A stretch of 20,465 nt of DNA from a virus: positions 1-20,465 of the IMG/VR virus record IMGVR_UViG_3300008012_000261. One strand, written 5' to 3'. The position numbers and the translations under genes are program-made. Below, piece after piece: positions 3,016 through 15,058 of this stretch. The notes beneath the pieces were generated by a model. That model was given only the letters and a program-made list of their open reading frames with translations, had not been told where the DNA came from and searched no databases. Position 1 is the stretch's first letter. The number at the start of each line of letters is the position of its first letter.

Positions 3016-3525
3016 AGAAATTTTAAATCCAGTTGATGGATTGGAACTAGCATGTCTAATCATGCCATCAAAAACAACTGCGGTGTTTGCTTTTGGTGTG
3101 AATCTATGGATAATATTATCATCCTTGTCAAACCAATAGGTATCACCATCGTTATCATTTACATAGTATAAAAGAACTGTGTGTTTAGTTGCTCTATCTA
3201 TGTGAATATTATTATGTTTTGCCTCTGTTTTTATAGGAAGATACAGTCCTAGACGAACTCTTTGCAAAAGTCTTTTGTCTAGTTTAGCTGTATCTAAAAG
3301 AGTTAGGAAGATCAGTTCAAATTTGTTAGACAAGTATGTGTCTTGAAATTTTGTTTCTGATTCACAAATTGTTCTAGAGAACGATGGATTTTTATTTTCT
3401 ATATAAGCGTTGGAATAAGCAGAGTCTTGATTAAAGAACCATGAAAAATCTTTTCCCTCAACTATTTCCTTGAACCACTTGTGCTGCCCGAAAGGCAGCA
3501 CATCATTATATTCAACGAAATTCAC
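2983..3525 (-). CDS. 2-oxoglutarate/Fe(II)-dependent dioxygenase
   Basis: The 180-aa protein carries the double-stranded beta-helix iron triad: H108-x-D110 (in NIHIDRA) and H158 (in IRHASS), with Lys168 in GFKISL in the place of the usual 2-oxoglutarate-binding Arg/Lys. Between them are the strands HTVLLYYV, DTYWFD and TAVVFDG, typical of the prolyl-hydroxylase-like branch. Such enzymes are frequent in marine T4-like cyanophages, with no firm substrate (protein, nucleobase or small molecule). The start is GTG at 3525, overlapping the nrdB stop as GTGA, with GGA eight nt upstream. Placement after nrdA and nrdB suggests expression with nucleotide metabolism. A strong hairpin falls in codons 9-15. 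Confidence 0.82.
   Translation of the reverse strand: MNFVEYNDVLPFGQHKWFKEIVEGKDFSWFFNQDSAYSNAYIENKNPSFSRTICESETKFQDTYLSNKFELIFLTLLDTAKLDKRLLQRVRLGLYLPIKTEAKHNNIHIDRATKHTVLLYYVNDNDGDTYWFDKDDNIIHRFTPKANTAVVFDGMIRHASSNPSTGFKISLNLNIDNSRI
3481..3501 (-). repeat. Perfect 8-bp stem-loop near the 5' end of the dioxygenase gene
   Basis: Minus strand GTGCTGCC (3501-3494), loop TTTCG, GGCAGCAC (3488-3481). It is GC-rich compared with its surroundings and begins 24 nt after the GTG start. No T-run follows, so it is not a standard intrinsic terminator. It could slow ribosomes, stabilise the processed nrd transcript end, or be a coincidence of the codons V-L-P-F-G-Q-H. Confidence 0.55.
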
Positions 3526-4652
3526 AATTTAAATCCAGCAAACGTACTTTCACTAACGTCCTGTTTGATACCACCGATGACATAAGACTCAACCTCTGTC
3601 TCCTGCGGTGCTACTTGCATAGACTTGGAATTGAGCCAGTGCTCTGTCCATGGTAGAGGGTTATTGTTTGCTGGGACATCGAAGATCGGTTTTAATCCGA
3701 TTGACTTCATTCTTCTGTTCGCAACCCACTCGACATACTTGGAAAGAAGTTTATCATTCAGTCCGATCATGCTACCATCTTTGAACAGATACTCTGCCCA
3801 GTTCTTCTCTTCCTCCACACACTGTTTGAACATCTCAATGATGTTCTCCTCTTCCTCCTTGGCAATCTCACGCATATCAGGATCATCACCTTCCAACCAC
3901 TTCTTGATAATGTTCTGGGTGATAGTCATGTGCTGCGACTCATCGCGAGCAATCAGTCCGATGATCTTTGCATTGCCTTCCATCATCTTCAGTTCACCAA
4001 AAGCGAAAGAACACGCAAAGGAAACATAGAAACGAATACCCTCAAGGATATAGACGTTGACTACAGCACGGTAGAGTTTACGTTTGAGTTCCTTGAGTTC
4101 CCATTGTGCAGAATCAACCTGCTCTAATGCCTGTTCCCAACGATTGCCAGCACCCCACTCCTGCGATGCTTGTAAGAACTCATCGTATGCTGCTGTAACA
4201 CTCTTGGCTCTCTCCAGAATACGATCATCATCAACGATGGTATCCAGTACCTCTGTTGGATCTGGGTATACGTTCTTGATGATGTATGTGTAGGAGCGAC
4301 TATGAATCATCTCCATAGTCTGCCAGATGTTCATGGCACCCTCAAGTTCAGGTAATGAACAGAAAGGACTAAAAGCCATCCCAGGACCACGCCCTTGTAC
4401 AGAATCCAGGAGGATCTGGTACTTAAGGTTAGCAGTGAAAATGTGCTTTTGCTCGGGGCGAAGTGTTTGATAGTCTGCACGATCTTTTTGTAGTGACACC
4501 TCCTCTGGTCTCCAAAAATAACCCAGTTGTGTCTGGGTTAGTTTATCAAAGACTGGATATTTAAACTGATCATATCTTTGGACCCCAAGAGGAGCACCAA
4601 AGAACATTTTTTGCTTGGTGGTATCAACCTTGTTCGTATTGAACACAGTCAT
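3522..4652 (-). CDS. nrdB: Ribonucleotide reductase class Ia, small subunit
   Basis: The 376-aa product houses the di-iron centre and tyrosyl radical that NrdA uses to reduce ribonucleotides. LPELEG and the EMIHSRSY segment give a Glu, Glu-xx-His and the radical Tyr with the same spacing as E. coli E115/H118/Y122. EGIRFYVSFACSFAFGE and ARDESQHM supply the second helix pair with Glu, Glu and His ligands. Length fits T4 NrdB (about 388 aa). The ATG at 4652 (MTVFNTNKVD) is preferred. An in-frame GTG at 4700 overlaps the nrdA end and would add a 16-residue extension that I do not expect in the family. A GTGA overlap links it to the dioxygenase. Confidence 0.95.
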   Translation of the reverse strand: MTVFNTNKVDTTKQKMFFGAPLGVQRYDQFKYPVFDKLTQTQLGYFWRPEEVSLQKDRADYQTLRPEQKHIFTANLKYQILLDSVQGRGPGMAFSPFCSLPELEGAMNIWQTMEMIHSRSYTYIIKNVYPDPTEVLDTIVDDDRILERAKSVTAAYDEFLQASQEWGAGNRWEQALEQVDSAQWELKELKRKLYRAVVNVYILEGIRFYVSFACSFAFGELKMMEGNAKIIGLIARDESQHMTITQNIIKKWLEGDDPDMREIAKEEEENIIEMFKQCVEEEKNWAEYLFKDGSMIGLNDKLLSKYVEWVANRRMKSIGLKPIFDVPANNNPLPWTEHWLNSKSMQVAPQETEVESYVIGGIKQDVSESTFAGFKL

Positions 4653-4680
4653 ACCTGATGGTCTCTTGGGTTCCGTCACT

Positions 4681-6990
4681 CTAAATCGCGCAACTGTCAC
4701 AAGCTTCCTCCTCGGTGTCTAGAATTTTATTTAATAGGTCTTCGATAGATTGTTTCTCTTCTTTTGGTTCCTCTACTTCATCGCTCTTATTGTCGTAGGT
4801 GTTCTGGTAGTAAGATGTCTTCCAACCATACTTATATGTATTCAAAAAGTCACCCGCCATTACGGACACTGGGACTTCATTGTTGGGGTAGTTCTCTGGA
4901 TTGTAAGACCAGTTTCCACTGATGGCTTGGTCGAAGAACTTTTGCATGACTGCGACCACGTTGATATAGCCGCTATTATTAGGCATGTCCCACAGTAAAG
5001 TATAATTATTTTTGAGAGTGTTGAACTGCGGTACAATCTGTTTAAGGGGTCCCTTCTTGCTCTTTTTAACGGACAAGTATCCGCGAGGTGGTTCGATTCC
5101 ATTGGTTGCATTTGACACAACGGAACTGCTCTCCGAAGGCATTTGTGCGGACAGTGTGCTGTGTCGTAGTCCATGTTCGACGATGCTGGATCGTAAAGTC
5201 TCCCAATCATAATTGTACTCTGGGTTCACCAGTTCATCTACGTCTTTCTTGTATGTATCAATTGGCAGAATACCGTCTGCATACTTGGTGCGATCAAAGT
5301 AACCACACTTTCCTTTTTCGATAGCAATCTGATTAGATGCTTTCAGAAGATTGTATTGGAAAGACTCTGTAAGGGCATGTACTTTCTTAAGTGCTTCAGG
5401 ATCGTCATAGGATACGCCCTGCTTGGCGAGGTAATGGGCAAGACCGATATACCCAACCCCAAGAGACCTGCGGTTGATTGTAGACGCTTCTGCTGCCTTT
5501 ACAGGGTACTGTTGGTAATCAATCAATTCCTCAAGACCGCGAACAGCCAGATCACACAGCTCTTCCATATCATCCAGAGACTTTAGTTTGCCTACGTTGA
5601 CAGCAGACAAAATACACAGAGCAATCTCACCTTCGCCATCAATATGCTGAAGAGGATCTGTAGGCAGGGTGATCTCCTGGCACAGATTGCTCATGTTCAC
5701 CTTGTCCTTGAAGGAAGAGTGACTGTTGCAGTGGTCGATGTTCATCAGATACATCCGACCAGTCTCTGCTCGCTCCTTCAGGAGGTCCAGAATGAGTGCT
5801 TGAGCTTTGATAGTTTTCTTTGGAATCGATTCATCAGATTCATAGCGCGTATAGAGATCATCAAATTTGTCAGTGCCAAAAGCATTATAAAGACCTGGGA
5901 CATCGTGAGGTGAGAATAACGTGATGTCTCCATCCGTGATGAATCGCTCGTAGAAGAGTTTGGAGAGTTGGATTGAGTAGTCGAGTTTTCGGACACGGTT
6001 ATCTTCGCTTCCTTTGTTATTCTTTAGGACAATGATGTCTTGGATTTCTTGGTGCCAGATTGGGAAGTGGACAGTTGCGCTTCCGCCTCGAATGCCATTT
6101 TGAGTGCAGCATCTGACAGTGCTCTCAAACTTTTTGAGGAATGGAATAACACCCGTGTGCGCGACTTCTCCACCTCTGATCTTACTGTTGACGCCACGGA
6201 TTCTGCCTGCGTTGATACCGATGCCCGCCCTTTGTGCAACATATCTGCCGATAGCCATATCAGAACTAAAGATGCTATCGAGGGTGTCATCAGAATCAAC
6301 AAGAACACAGCTAGCAAATTGTCGAAGTGGAGTTCGCACTCCCGCCATGATAGGTGTGGGAATGTTGATTTTGTGCTTTGAGATTGCGTTGTAGTATCGT
6401 CTGACATAATCGAGTCTCGTAGACAAGGGGTATTCTGCGAAGAGAGTCAAGGCAATCATCATATACATGTACTGGGGAGTCTCATAGACATCTCCACCAC
6501 TACGATCCTGAACAAGATACTTGTCCACTACCTGGCGAAGACCAGCATAGGTAAACAGGTAGTCACGATCATGATCAATCCAACTATCAATCTTGATCCA
6601 ATCTTCATCGCTATACTTATCTAGGATTTCTTCATCGTAGACTTTATTAACTGTAGCATTATAAGCCGCGACATCAAAGACAGAAGGCATACCTTCCTTC
6701 CAAATGTTCTTGTGGAAAGTTTGCTTACGCAGACCGAACAGCAGCAGGCGAGCAGCGACGAACTGATAGTTAGGATGGTCCAGGTCGATCAGATCAGAAG
6801 CAGAACGAATCAGGATCTCTTGGATAGCCTCGGTGGTGATACCGTCATAGAACTGGATGCCCGAGTTCATTTCTACCTGCGATGCAGAGACACCACCAAG
6901 TCCCTTACATGCTTCATCGACCATCTTATGAATCTTATCCAAGTTGAGGGGTTCTTGTGAACCGTCTCGCTTTACAACATTGATGCTCAT
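4681..6990 (-). CDS. nrdA: Ribonucleotide reductase class Ia, large subunit
   Basis: The 769-aa product is the catalytic subunit that makes dNTPs for phage replication. It has an N-terminal ATP-cone-like region (VVKRDGSQEPLNLDKI), the active-site cysteine in FASCVLVDSDD, the radical segment SNLCQEITLPT (Asn-x-Cys-x-Glu as in E. coli N437/C439/E441), the second redox cysteine in ALCILSAVNVG, and NGIEPPRGYLS. The C-terminal CDSCAI carries the Cys pair reduced by thioredoxin or glutaredoxin. The ATG at 6990 overlaps the primase stop as ATGA and has GGAAAAAGG just upstream; the in-frame ATG at 7002 is less likely. It is followed after 28 nt by nrdB. Confidence 0.96.
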   Translation of the reverse strand: MSINVVKRDGSQEPLNLDKIHKMVDEACKGLGGVSASQVEMNSGIQFYDGITTEAIQEILIRSASDLIDLDHPNYQFVAARLLLFGLRKQTFHKNIWKEGMPSVFDVAAYNATVNKVYDEEILDKYSDEDWIKIDSWIDHDRDYLFTYAGLRQVVDKYLVQDRSGGDVYETPQYMYMMIALTLFAEYPLSTRLDYVRRYYNAISKHKINIPTPIMAGVRTPLRQFASCVLVDSDDTLDSIFSSDMAIGRYVAQRAGIGINAGRIRGVNSKIRGGEVAHTGVIPFLKKFESTVRCCTQNGIRGGSATVHFPIWHQEIQDIIVLKNNKGSEDNRVRKLDYSIQLSKLFYERFITDGDITLFSPHDVPGLYNAFGTDKFDDLYTRYESDESIPKKTIKAQALILDLLKERAETGRMYLMNIDHCNSHSSFKDKVNMSNLCQEITLPTDPLQHIDGEGEIALCILSAVNVGKLKSLDDMEELCDLAVRGLEELIDYQQYPVKAAEASTINRRSLGVGYIGLAHYLAKQGVSYDDPEALKKVHALTESFQYNLLKASNQIAIEKGKCGYFDRTKYADGILPIDTYKKDVDELVNPEYNYDWETLRSSIVEHGLRHSTLSAQMPSESSSVVSNATNGIEPPRGYLSVKKSKKGPLKQIVPQFNTLKNNYTLLWDMPNNSGYINVVAVMQKFFDQAISGNWSYNPENYPNNEVPVSVMAGDFLNTYKYGWKTSYYQNTYDNKSDEVEEPKEEKQSIEDLLNKILDTEEEACDSCAI

Positions 6991-7982
6991 ACCTTTTTCC
7001 ATTCGTTCAGTTTAAGAGTTGCTTCTAATCCTTGATATACATTGGATTCTACCACAGATTGAACGTCATGTCCATGAAGAACCATGTCATTGATGTCTTT
7101 CTGTGTGATTGATTTAGGCCAGATAACTACGGAGTTGCCTTGATTGATTGAGTTACGGATTCGGTTGACGATTTGTGGGTTTCGGGGTTCGTTATCATAA
7201 ACATAGCAGCAATCGCTAGCAAACCCACTAGGAAGTAGAACATCACTTCCGCACATAGCAATCGAATTGCGAATGAACGTTGAGTCGAAAGGACCTTCGC
7301 ATATGTATACTCTTTCATTAGTGTTTACCTTATCAAGACCAAAAAGTTTCGGTTGATTCTCGTCAAGAATAACCGTGATGTACCGTAGTTTCGTTGCTTT
7401 AGATAGTGACCTACCTTGAAAACCAAATAGTTTTTTGTCTGCTGTGTATAGAGGCAGAATAATACGTGGACTATCACCTCTCATGTCAGAGAAGGTTTCT
7501 TTCTGTTGATTGGTCCACTCCTTAAATTTAGGACAGTAAAAGAAGTAATCGAGATCTTTAATTTTTCGTTGCTCTAGATATTGCCTCGCCAGGTGAGAAG
7601 TATTTAGCTCCGAAATCTTTTGCAGTTTGATATCTTGTTCTGATTTCTTGAAGACTGGCTTCTTGAATTCAAACTTGGGTGATGCAGTTTGAGTATTCTT
7701 ACCAGTCAACCCCTCCCTATATCGTTCCAGGACATACTCATCGTAAAGAAGTTTGTTCTGATCCTTCAGGAAGTTAGTAAAAGTCCTACCTGCACCACAG
7801 TTGTGGCACTTGTAAACATAATCATTCTTCTTCTTAAACAGATACCCCCGTGCCTTGTCCTTACGCTTCTGGGAGTCACCACAGTATGGACAACGAAAGT
7901 TATACAGTCCTTCTTTCTTGCGTTCAAACCTCTGAAGAGAGGCAGAAACCATGCTGATATACTTTACGTCAAGATAGCTCAC
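6987..7982 (-). CDS. 61: DNA primase, T4 gp61-like
   Basis: This 331-aa DnaG-type primase makes RNA primers for lagging-strand synthesis with the gp41 helicase. The N-terminal zinc-binding domain has CPYC (residues 31-34) and KCHNC (C59 and C62). A TOPRIM-like core follows: a Glu motif in YICEGPFDS (about 227-234) and an acidic VYDNE motif (about 261-265). Length is close to T4 gp61 (342 aa). The start overlaps the upstream coiled-coil gene by 14 nt, and the stop overlaps nrdA by 4 nt. It is separated from gp43, uvsX and gp41 by about 7 kb of accessory and structural genes. Confidence 0.93.
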   Translation of the reverse strand: MSYLDVKYISMVSASLQRFERKKEGLYNFRCPYCGDSQKRKDKARGYLFKKKNDYVYKCHNCGAGRTFTNFLKDQNKLLYDEYVLERYREGLTGKNTQTASPKFEFKKPVFKKSEQDIKLQKISELNTSHLARQYLEQRKIKDLDYFFYCPKFKEWTNQQKETFSDMRGDSPRIILPLYTADKKLFGFQGRSLSKATKLRYITVILDENQPKLFGLDKVNTNERVYICEGPFDSTFIRNSIAMCGSDVLLPSGFASDCCYVYDNEPRNPQIVNRIRNSINQGNSVVIWPKSITQKDINDMVLHGHDVQSVVESNVYQGLEATLKLNEWKKV

Positions 7983-10126: not shown

Positions 10127-10345
10127 TCATTCACCTTCTGCAGGTGCTTCCTCTCTTGATTTAATAGCAGCGGAGACAACTTCTAGAAGTTGATCATCCA
10201 TATCGGTCTTCGTGAGTTTAACAGCTTTGCCTAGAATAACCAGACAAATGTCGATTAGTTTCTCACCTAGTTCTTCGTTATCGGGAATTTTAGATACTGC
10301 ATCAGAAATAATTTTTGATGCAAGTGGAAGTAGAAATGCAAGCAT
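10127..10345 (-). CDS. 72-aa small hydrophobic/amphipathic protein
   Basis: The start is placed at ATG 10345 (MLAFLLPLASKIISDAV). A longer in-frame version from 10414 would run back over the end of the upstream gene, its stop, the promoter and a hairpin, so it is less likely. The N-terminus is hydrophobic (residues 1-18), a second hydrophobic helix is ICLVILGKAVKL, and the end is acidic (REEAPAEGE). It may bind membranes or a virion surface. I recall short relatives in marine phages without a known role. It is followed directly by a terminator and preceded by a late-promoter motif with a 5' leader hairpin. Confidence 0.7.
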   Translation of the reverse strand: MLAFLLPLASKIISDAVSKIPDNEELGEKLIDICLVILGKAVKLTKTDMDDQLLEVVSAAIKSREEAPAEGE

Positions 10346-10353
10346 GATTTTAA

Positions 10354-10379
10354 GGGCATAATGTGCCCTATTATTTATT
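10354..10379 (-). promoter_or_regulatory. Late promoter motif followed by leader hairpin
   Basis: AATAAATA (10379-10372) includes the stop of the 84-codon frame (AAT AAA TAA). The predicted start near 10366 leads into GGGCA (10368-10364), loop CATTA, TGCCC (10358-10354), then TTAAAATC and ATG 10345. A GCATAA (10392-10387)/TTATGC (10361-10356) pairing would compete with this hairpin in read-through RNA, so early and late transcripts would fold differently. Confidence 0.55.
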
Positions 10380-10625
10380 CTTGTTCTTATGCTTCCACGC
10401 AGTAGCGTATGCAATACCCTCTTTATCTTTAGGATAGTTCTTCTTAATGTGCTTCACCATCCTTTCGTACTTCTTACCAGGAGGAGCGACTTCATCGAGT
10501 TCAACTGACTCTTTTTGCTGCTTCTTCACGGCACCGAGAACATACTTCTTATGCTTCTTTTTAGCAGAAGCATCTTCCGCTCCGTCTTTGATGTCAGGCA
10601 TCACTTCGACGGAAGCGGCTTTCAC
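10371..10625 (-). CDS. 84-codon frame: C-terminal module, probably reached by -1 frameshift
   Basis: The frame begins at GTG 10625, overlapping the stop of the 338-aa gene (GTGA), and contains no ATG before codon 9. It encodes a Lys-rich linker and the module APPGKKYERMVKHIKKNY then GIAYATAWKHK. I know this PPG-x-KYERMVKHIKK...AYATAWK module as a recurring C-terminal tail in marine phage structural-type proteins, which suggests it is the intended tail of the upstream protein. The junction has a dnaX-type slippery heptamer, an upstream GGGGAG and a downstream stem-loop. It may instead be initiated separately at GTG 10625 or ATG 10601, or the split could be a homopolymer sequencing error. The stop is part of a late-promoter motif. 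Confidence 0.72.
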   Translation of the reverse strand: MKAASVEVMPDIKDGAEDASAKKKHKKYVLGAVKKQQKESVELDEVAPPGKKYERMVKHIKKNYPKDKEGIAYATAWKHKNKNK

Positions 10626-10648
10626 TTTTTTTCTTCTTCAATCTCCCC
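10577..10648 (-). promoter_or_regulatory. Candidate programmed -1 ribosomal frameshift signal
   Basis: In 5'-3' order on the minus strand: GGGGAG (10648-10643); an 11-nt spacer; A AAA AAG in the zero frame of the 338-aa gene (10631-10625); the zero-frame stop TGA (10624-10622); a 6-nt spacer; and a stem CCGCTTCCGTC (10618-10608) with GACGGAGCGG (10586-10577). That stem is 10 bp with one bulged T. The loop holds an inner TGATG/CATCA stem. Heptamer, upstream Shine-Dalgarno and 3' stem match the E. coli dnaX arrangement. Slipping back one base reads GTG AAA GCC and enters the 84-codon frame, giving a 422-aa product. Confidence 0.72.
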
Positions 10649-11638
10649 ACGAAGCTCTGCCTGCTCCTTCATCTTCTTTTTGGTGTTGATGATCTTGGAG
10701 ACTTTCTTGCGGCGAGCAAGTAGATACTTGTCGGACTTGTCATGATCACCGTCATTGTCAACGTCCTTGTCTTCCTTGCCTACAGGATCAAGTTTCTTCT
10801 CACCAAGAACTTCTCTGTTCTTTGCGTCGTTAACAACGTGCTCATGAACTTCACTGATCATGATCTCAAGGTCTTCTACAGGTACATTATGGAGAATTGT
10901 GGTCTCTCTCATAATATCATAGTGAGTTACTGTTCCATCCTCAAGCATGGTGTGCTCACCAGGGATGACAGTGTACTCAAGACCTTCTTTCTTGACTTTC
11001 TTTGCACAGTTGTGCTTCTTAACCATCTTGCCAGACTTGGGGTCCTTCTCAAAGTATTCCTTAACGCAGTTATCAACACGCTTGCCACCCTTCATCTTGG
11101 TGCCCATCTGCTTATAACCTTTCCAGCAAGCCTTGCCGTCAAGTCCTTTCTTTTTCTCCATGATATAAGTCTCACCATTGAGTTCAAACTCAACAGTTTC
11201 CTTCTTCATAGCAGCCTTATCTTTCTTCTCACACTTGGAGCACCCTTTTCCTCCACAATAAGAGCAGGCTTCCTCACGGGCAACCACCTTCGTGGTGTCT
11301 TTAATTTCAGATCCGTGAGATTGTTTGATACCTGTACCAGCACGAAGATTGGGAGCAGGATCAGGCGCACCAGAGTTTGTTTTGGGATCTTTTGTAGAGA
11401 AATCATCTGCTTTCGCCTCCTTTCCTGCAAGGGATGGGATTGATGTAGAAGAATCAGCACCGCCTGCAGGACCAGGAGTTGGAAGTTCTTTCTTTTCTGG
11501 TGCTGGGATTGTAGTAGCCTCTTTAATTGTGGACTGTTGGAATCCTTCTCCACCCATCCACTTACCATAAGCTTCGATTAGTGCCTGTGAGTAGGCATCA
11601 TTATGTTGCACACTATTGACTGGTTTTTGTCTTTCCAT
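10622..11638 (-). CDS. 338-aa modular protein, zero-frame product of a likely frameshift gene
   Basis: The N-terminal 120 residues are Pro/Ser/Lys-rich and probably disordered. Residues 125-136 (CSYCGGKGCSKC) are a DnaJ-like zinc-binding cluster with two CxxC pairs. Residues 171-191 hold the CWKGYKQMGTKMKGGK module, which I recall from marine phage structural-type proteins. Residues 292-303 (DVDNDGDHDKSD) form an EF-hand-like calcium loop with D at positions 1, 3, 5 and 9 and Gly at 6. The tail is basic and ends GEIEEEKK on the slippery run. ATG at 11638 overlaps the 92-aa gene by 26 nt. The role is unknown; multi-domain, metal-binding and virion- or scaffold-associated is the best inference. 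Confidence 0.82.
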   Translation of the reverse strand: MERQKPVNSVQHNDAYSQALIEAYGKWMGGEGFQQSTIKEATTIPAPEKKELPTPGPAGGADSSTSIPSLAGKEAKADDFSTKDPKTNSGAPDPAPNLRAGTGIKQSHGSEIKDTTKVVAREEACSYCGGKGCSKCEKKDKAAMKKETVEFELNGETYIMEKKKGLDGKACWKGYKQMGTKMKGGKRVDNCVKEYFEKDPKSGKMVKKHNCAKKVKKEGLEYTVIPGEHTMLEDGTVTHYDIMRETTILHNVPVEDLEIMISEVHEHVVNDAKNREVLGEKKLDPVGKEDKDVDNDGDHDKSDKYLLARRKKVSKIINTKKKMKEQAELRGEIEEEKK

Positions 11639-11891
11639 TGTTGAAAATACTACTACTTTTCCTTTCTTTATTTATAGTGTCCGTCACGTTAACGTGCCGC
11701 ACATCCTTAATCCACGCACGAAACATGTCTCCAGACTCGGTAATTGCGATGACGTAGTTGACACCAGCACGATGAATCGTGCCTTTCTCACCAGTAATAG
11801 ACGACATGATAACATCACCCTCCACAAAGACATCACCTTGTCTATGTTGCTGACGCAGTGCTTCTTCGCGCAGTGTCTTGAAATTTTTCAT
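11613..11891 (-). CDS. 92-aa small protein with SH3-like barrel character
   Basis: The protein starts MKNFKTLREEALRQQHRQGD and then has a beta-rich centre (GDVIMSSITGEKGTIHRAG, NYVIAITESGDMFRAWI) and a basic tail. The short strand-turn pattern suggests a KOW/SH3-like barrel; this is inferred from the sequence pattern only. I recall close relatives as hypothetical or structural proteins in T4-like cyanophages. ATG at 11891 overlaps the nucleotidyltransferase stop as ATGA. The last third contains a TATAAATA late motif in the coding sequence (T-I-N-K), so the 338-aa gene can be driven separately. Confidence 0.8.
   Translation of the reverse strand: MKNFKTLREEALRQQHRQGDVFVEGDVIMSSITGEKGTIHRAGVNYVIAITESGDMFRAWIKDVRHVNVTDTINKERKSSSIFNNGKTKTSQ
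11669..11676 (-). promoter_or_regulatory. T4 late promoter TATAAATA inside the 92-aa gene
   Basis: An exact TATAAATA lies in the coding sequence of the 92-aa gene, 30 nt upstream of ATG 11638 of the 338-aa modular gene. Spacing and direction fit a late promoter for that gene. A GAAAGG run follows, then the ATG after a further 20 nt or so. Confidence 0.6.
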
Positions 11892-12451
11892 TTATAGTTG
11901 TCTGGCAAATTACTCTTAATCTCTGCCATAAGTGCCCTACAATCCTTCTCCGATAACGCTTTAGGTATACCCTGGCGGAATGTTTTGAAGTCGTTGGCCG
12001 CAGCAGCACGTCTCATTTTAGTACCCGAGATAGCAAAAGTGTCTCCGTCAGCATCTCTGCTGCCCGAAGACTCAATGCGGATACTTCTAAAGGAGTAATC
12101 CTTACCATTATATTTATGGAGGAACTGCATGGCATTAACTCTATCAGAACCCACCAAGAATACTACATCATCATACCCAGCGAGCATGAGTTCTTGTAAG
12201 ATTGCAACAGGTTGTTTGGGTCCCGAAAATATTTTACCACGATGTTGCGGAAACATCAAGTTCATGTAGTGCAATTTACGATCAGGAGGTAAAGGGTTAT
12301 TACCTTTAGCATCAACAGACTGTGAGATGTAGATGCGATAGTCATGCTGACCAGCAGCACGTTTCACGCCATTGAAGTTATCTTCATGACCTGTTGTAGG
12401 TGGTTGGAACCTACCAAATGTGAAGTAACATACCTTTCCTTCTAACGCCAT
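11888..12451 (-). CDS. Cytidylyltransferase-superfamily nucleotidyltransferase (NMNAT-like)
   Basis: The 187-aa protein has GRFQPPTTGH at residues 13-22, the (H/T)xGH nucleotide-binding motif, and ISGTKMR at 141-147, the ISxTxxR motif that holds the triphosphate. Between them LVGSDR (99-104) matches the phosphate loop seen in NMN and other adenylyltransferases. Together these indicate a phosphotransfer of NMP from an NTP to a substrate, either NMN/nicotinate mononucleotide or a sugar or lipid phosphate. In the NAD case it could maintain the phage NAD pool. It overlaps the ligase-like gene by 10 nt and the 92-aa gene by 4 nt. The substrate cannot be told from sequence. Confidence 0.83.
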   Translation of the reverse strand: MALEGKVCYFTFGRFQPPTTGHEDNFNGVKRAAGQHDYRIYISQSVDAKGNNPLPPDRKLHYMNLMFPQHRGKIFSGPKQPVAILQELMLAGYDDVVFLVGSDRVNAMQFLHKYNGKDYSFRSIRIESSGSRDADGDTFAISGTKMRRAAAANDFKTFRQGIPKALSEKDCRALMAEIKSNLPDNYK

Positions 12452-14973: not shown

Positions 14974-15058
14974 CGGAAGGGGTGGGATTCGAACCCACGG
15001 AAGCTCTCACTTCGCTAGTTTTCAAGACTAGAGCCTTAAACCACTCGACCACCCTTCC
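14974..15058 (-). tRNA. tRNA-Ser(UGA)
   Basis: An 85-nt cloverleaf reads on the minus strand. Acceptor GGAAGGG pairs with CCCTTCC; the D arm is GTCGAGTGGTTTAAGGC. The anticodon stem CTAGT/ACTAG closes the loop CTTGAAA, giving anticodon TGA (15024-15022). A long variable arm (class II, as in tRNA-Ser) precedes the T arm GTGGG-TTCGAAT-CCCAC. The discriminator is G, as in serine tRNAs. CCA is not encoded, so the host CCA-adding enzyme would be needed. It reads UCA and other UCN codons. Its 5' 31 nt overlap the end of a 69-aa ORF. Confidence 0.95.

Follow-up and report, generated by a model that had tools for sequence, protein, structure and literature searches.

In Escherichia coli dnaX, the slippery heptamer A AAA AAG and a 10-bp hairpin give a -1 shift efficiency of 50-80% (PMC7282821). 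A Shine-Dalgarno (SD) element is reported to stimulate -1 frameshifting when placed at 9-14 nt (PMC5009743), and another study took a broader interval, 6-17 nt, to be backed by experiment (PMC4066793); the former work also treats A_AAA_AAG in bacteria whose single tRNA-Lys decodes both lysine codons. The window considered here is a 20,465-nucleotide stretch of viral DNA (IMG/VR virus record IMGVR_UViG_3300008012_000261, positions 1 to 20,465), in which a gene of 338 codons ends in the same heptamer. Comparison with homologous sequences makes it very likely that this gene end is a dnaX-type programmed -1 ribosomal frameshift site. The mechanism is already known; the gene family seems not to have been described before, as far as the literature searched goes. 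An earlier reading of the window, made from its letters alone (the sequence-only reading), was not aware of such a signal being described in a T4-like cyanophage, and the open-access literature searched likewise yielded no account of frameshifting, whether for this site or for other genes of T4-like cyanophages.

Signal elements at the gene end

All coordinates are window positions, and the locus is read on the minus strand. The zero-frame gene (10622..11638), whose 338-aa protein is the product of normal termination, ends GAG CTT CGT GGG GAG ATT GAA GAA GAA AAA AAG TGA, with A AAA AAG in the zero frame at 10625..10631 and the TGA stop immediately 3' of it (10622..10624). A predicted SD-like stimulator, GGGGAG (10643..10648), lies 11 nt 5' of the heptamer, within the 9-14 nt of dnaX-type sites, while a predicted stimulatory stem of 10 bp with one bulge begins 6 nt 3' of it. 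The 5' arm of this stem is CCGCU-U-CCGUC (10608..10618), the 3' arm is GACGGAGCGG (10577..10586), and the loop holds an inner hairpin, UGAUG/CAUCA (10589..10603, arms 10603-10599/10593-10589). Folding of 10573-10619 reproduced exactly this stem and inner hairpin at -22.4 kcal/mol (z -5.07, with none of 200 shuffles as good); z was -2.57 when the upstream part was added to the folded segment. An Rfam search of window positions 10300-10800 gave no match.

Each of these elements had been described in the sequence-only reading and was recovered in its place, as was the open frame of 84 codons (10371..10625) that a -1 slip would enter. This frame, KKV-KAASVEVMPDIKDG... plus a PPGKKYERMVKHIKK...AYATAWK tail, would form the C-terminal extension of a predicted 422-aa fusion. 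It had also been said to lack a good start, which calls for a correction: a GTG opens it, within a GTGA stop/start overlap, although the SD-like element is 17 nt from that GTG, a spacing that is poor for initiation.

The heptamer itself is uncommon. In the related S-CAM3 genome, whose gene set was approximated through open reading frame calling, in-frame A AAA AAG occurs only 10 times in ~64,000 codons and in 10 of 268 Lys-Lys pairs, as opposed to all 59 of the homologous junctions that are not of the ATG type described below; its presence there is therefore above chance. One further heptamer, the terminal A AAA AAG TAA of S-CAM3 gp030 (193571-193882; L385, L421), was considered as a second site and judged to be chance; its -1 extension overruns the gene and has no sign of a conserved module.

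In the mechanism that we propose, a translating ribosome would arrive at the AAA AAG ending the 338-codon frame and be held on the heptamer from both sides, by GGGGAG at its back and by the stem-loop in front. With its two lysyl-tRNAs shifted from pairing with A AAA AAG to pairing with AAA AAA, it would continue with GTG AAA GCC ... in the -1 frame, bypassing the TGA stop. Two products sharing 338 residues would result: the 338-aa short form and a 422-aa form with the VEVMP.../KYERMVKHIKK tail, the predicted fusion reading ...EEEKKVKAASVEVMP... across the junction at the window locus and ...EETEKKVKKPVIEVMPEIDDG in S-PM2. Slippage in infected cells, its efficiency and a need for both forms are what we infer from these features. 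The Prochlorococcus single-cell genome behind one of the homologous junctions (L179) has one tRNA-Lys, UUU only, among 34 tRNA matches; for this one genome, that would fit the tRNA condition described for A_AAA_AAG (PMC5009743).

Two classes of homologous junction

Homologues were sought with tblastn and in IMG/VR, using as query the zero-frame protein and not the heptamer. They were found in S-CAM3, S-PM2, S-CAM1, Syn1, S-RIM32, S-RIM44, S-H9-2, Sf-CH11 and Sf-FP1, as well as in many IMG/VR contigs. The 101 distinct junctions comprise 59 with A AAA AAG (class B) and 42 with a junction ATG (class A); one junction, placed in class B, has both and none has neither. Excluded from both counts was L130, whose junction is ATGA and whose heptamer, one codon earlier, is a chance one. 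The exclusivity of heptamer and ATG has a Fisher p of 9e-28, which is not a count of independent events.

Class A homologues (S-RSM4, S-WAM2, S-H9-1, Sf-CH1b and others) are more distant from the window than those of class B, and have ATGA or TAATG followed by a normal MK[ST]FKQFREE start. In class B, the heptamer either abuts the stop (TGA, TAA or TAG) or is separated from it by CAA or CAG, and the -1 frame reads K(K/A)...VEVMP; the heptamer is one codon further from the stop in five of the 59. The terminal lysines of this class are AAA AAG without exception, and the residue preceding them may be Glu, Gly or Ser, its codon ending in A every time. A separate set of sequences, collected with a DNA pattern that selects for the heptamer, was used in the covariation and codon tests only and not in frequency counts. 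A scan of genome contigs returned mainly unrelated loci, plus L176 and L179. Current annotations of the isolates call two genes or omit the tail. In Sf-FP1 (L093, 3272-3388), the -1 tail KKVKKPVVEIMPEIDDG... is unannotated.

An SD-like element (~-5 kcal/mol or better against the 3' end of 16S rRNA) is found upstream in 57 of the 59 class B junctions, with a modal distance of 10 nt; the SD-like pairing of class A is mostly weak (about -3). Among the matches listed, 31 sequences of the window's clade show pairing of the stem in 89% of cells, with 28 double-changed cells compared to 11.7 in shuffles (0/500), and versions of the stem slid along the alignment score far lower. Compensatory changes in the predicted stem are thus shown by the alignment of this clade. 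Other members possess different, unrelated stems at roughly equal position (e.g. L108 and L049), and the signal is retained in differing upstream contexts (L179 and L094). Conservation among homologues had been put forward in the sequence-only reading as a check: the heptamer and the position of the stop are indeed conserved, as are the SD-like element and reading in the -1 frame, whereas the stem is conserved in the window's clade and not in the KKPVVEV clade (S-PM2/Syn1/S-RIM32/S-H9-2).

Restart, slippage and error as alternatives

The alternative that survives best is stop-start coupling, in which ribosomes would terminate at TGA and restart at the overlapping GTG, the 84-codon frame then encoding a separate protein. 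We regard it as improbable, even though GTGA is found at the window locus and at 28 of the 59 class B junctions, and the class A homologues have an ordinary start at the same junction. At 30 of these 59 junctions TAA or TAG serves as stop and there is no overlapping GTG, so that no stop-overlapping start is conserved, yet they keep the heptamer as well as the SD-like element and the reading in the -1 frame. At fourteen of these junctions the stretch from the last -1-frame stop to VEVMP is devoid of ATG, GTG and TTG, as in S-RIM32, L102 (NEACGCDDK through to VEIMP) and L119; L110, which reads VEILP, has no start anywhere in that stretch. Coupling also fails to explain the invariant AAA and the A preceding it, and the 17 nt between SD and GTG at the window locus lies outside the 5-9 nt expected of a coupled pair.

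The start-less stretch moreover bears a mark of coding selection in the ratio of nonsynonymous to synonymous change (pN/pS). From heptamer to VEVMP, in 17 no-start sequences among the matches listed, pN/pS was 0.66 in the -1 frame versus 1.83 and 2.09 in the other two; over 16 codons the -1-frame value was 0.41, the other frames in both comparisons giving 1.0-2.1. Being pooled from pairwise comparisons of related sequences, these values indicate direction only and carry no formal probability. The stretch before VEVMP therefore looks as if it is translated; the evidence for translation of the -1 frame, whose ratio is below 1 also where there is no start, is evolutionary. FRAMESHIFTING is the best reading of class B, favoured over restart. 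At the window locus, coupling is a real rival, excluded only through the TAA/TAG relatives.

Transcriptional slippage, by which RNA polymerase would insert one A in the A-run and some mRNAs would encode the fusion, was rejected as very unlikely: an A7 run is present at 54 of the 59 junctions, but L094, L105, L108, L119 and L141 have only A6 and retain the in-frame heptamer, and such slippage would depend neither on the phase of the heptamer nor on an SD some 10 nt away, nor on a stem that covaries. A sequencing or assembly error that breaks one continuous gene, which the sequence-only reading had set out as a refutation and which the position of the break at a homopolymer run might suggest, is hardly credible and was also rejected, because the identical break occurs in the independent records of S-PM2, S-CAM1, S-CAM3, Syn1, S-RIM32, S-RIM44, S-H9-2, Sf-CH11 and Sf-FP1, which come from separate studies, and in many IMG/VR contigs.

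Several observations weigh against programmed frameshifting. At the window locus, a GTG start still overlaps the TGA stop, and the SDs of L119 and L094 are weak. In the KKPVVEV clade, the SD is ~7 nt from the heptamer rather than 9-14 nt, the stem is not conserved and folding is near background. On the tree of the upstream 92-aa gene (unrooted, 42 rows), the A/B state changes only once; what the counts show is thus a state maintained over a long time rather than repeated origins, and the loci are not independent events. Frameshifting at this locus is, finally, a prediction that draws on evolutionary evidence.

Differing tails, neighbouring genes and known systems

The junctions of L024, L034, L090, L102 and L119 retain NEACGCDDK or TEACECDDK, which resembles a leftover of REECGCxDK, the N-terminal sequence encoded by class A genes. 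In L094 (Marine virus AG-345-P14, ~3258), A AAA AAG TAG is located further upstream, after a KKAMGKKGKK protein end, and 168 codons are open in the -1 frame, including the THYD... module that is zero-frame in the window. L179 (Prochlorococcus single-cell genome AG-418-C09, ~1674 onward; the contig is probably a phage in a sorted cell) has A AAA AAG TAG / VEIMP with another upstream module and 202 codons in the -1 frame. The tails vary, being KYERMVKHIKK, DUF3008 (PF11450) or short lysine-rich ends. On balance, we favour the view that T4-like cyanophages would use two interchangeable solutions for one pair of modules at this gene boundary, according to lineage either coupling, giving separate proteins, or -1 frameshifting, which would put a tail on some of the copies; the junctions with N-terminal leftovers would be chimeric, and the frameshift version may have acted as a socket for exchanged tails (KYERMVKHIKK, DUF3008 and others).

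The 338-aa protein belongs to PHROG 4359, in the function unknown category, and sequence searches of Pfam, NCBIfam and PDB yielded no match and no function for it; the metal-binding domains that the sequence-only reading had given it are putative. Its AlphaFold2 model (predicted local distance difference test score 50, predicted template modelling score 0.24) was too poor and was not used. The gene lies between a cytidyltransferase gene upstream and a gene annotated 'head protein' downstream, and the cytidyltransferase cluster T4-GC190 has been detected in the S-SM1 virion (PMC3037559). From these neighbours, a function within the virion or close to it is no more than a reasonable guess.

The cytidyltransferase gene (11888-12451, minus strand) is ~80% or ~40% identical between otherwise close relatives, a pattern that suggests its exchange via recombination. 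Many records give the 92-aa gene (11613-11891, minus strand; PHROG 4808) the name 'ribonucleotide reductase alpha subunit'; this name looks like a propagated error, the ribonucleotide reductase-like genes of the window being at 3522-7002. A tRNA-Ser(UGA) gene is found at 14974-15058 (minus strand), and S-CAM3 has a tRNA-Ser(UGA) in the same genome part, near the cytidyltransferase block.

The site adds a deeply conserved predicted recoding signal to an abundant marine virus family, and predicts unannotated C-terminal extensions in the well-studied S-PM2, Syn1, S-CAM1, S-CAM3 and S-RIM32. Furthermore, the same two modules are expressed through coupling or through predicted frameshifting in a natural series, so that the reason for tail fusion can be tested by comparing relatives.

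In dnaX, the shifted product is the shorter one, whereas in the cyanophage gene a stop ends the zero frame immediately, and a shift would lengthen the protein by a tail. The likeness to E. coli dnaX lies in A_AAA_AAG, the upstream internal SD-like element and the ~10-bp stem-loop just downstream (PMC7282821, PMC5009743). It does not extend to the gene itself, which is unrelated and has no Pfam match. The tail assembly chaperone gpG/gpGT of phage lambda is similar in that a phage gene gains a C-terminal extension when ribosomes shift by -1 close to its end (PMC5009743); the 338-aa gene differs in having no tail-chaperone family match by PHROG and in not being beside a tape-measure gene. T4-like phages reportedly make their chaperone forms without frameshifting, according to Vladimirov 2022 as relayed in PMC10885494. 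The A_AAA_AAG sites of the IS3 family likewise combine the heptamer with two stimulators, an SD on its upstream side and a structure on its downstream side (PMC4066793), but they produce a transposase fusion and do not belong to a phage gene of this family. The ATGA pairs of S-RSM4, S-WAM2, S-H9-1 and Sf-CH1b occupy the orthologous junction and share the upstream C-terminal, VEVMP and KYERMVKHIKK modules; in these, however, the second frame starts at an ATG, with an MKTFKQFREE N-terminus, the slippery heptamer is absent, and two separate proteins are expected.
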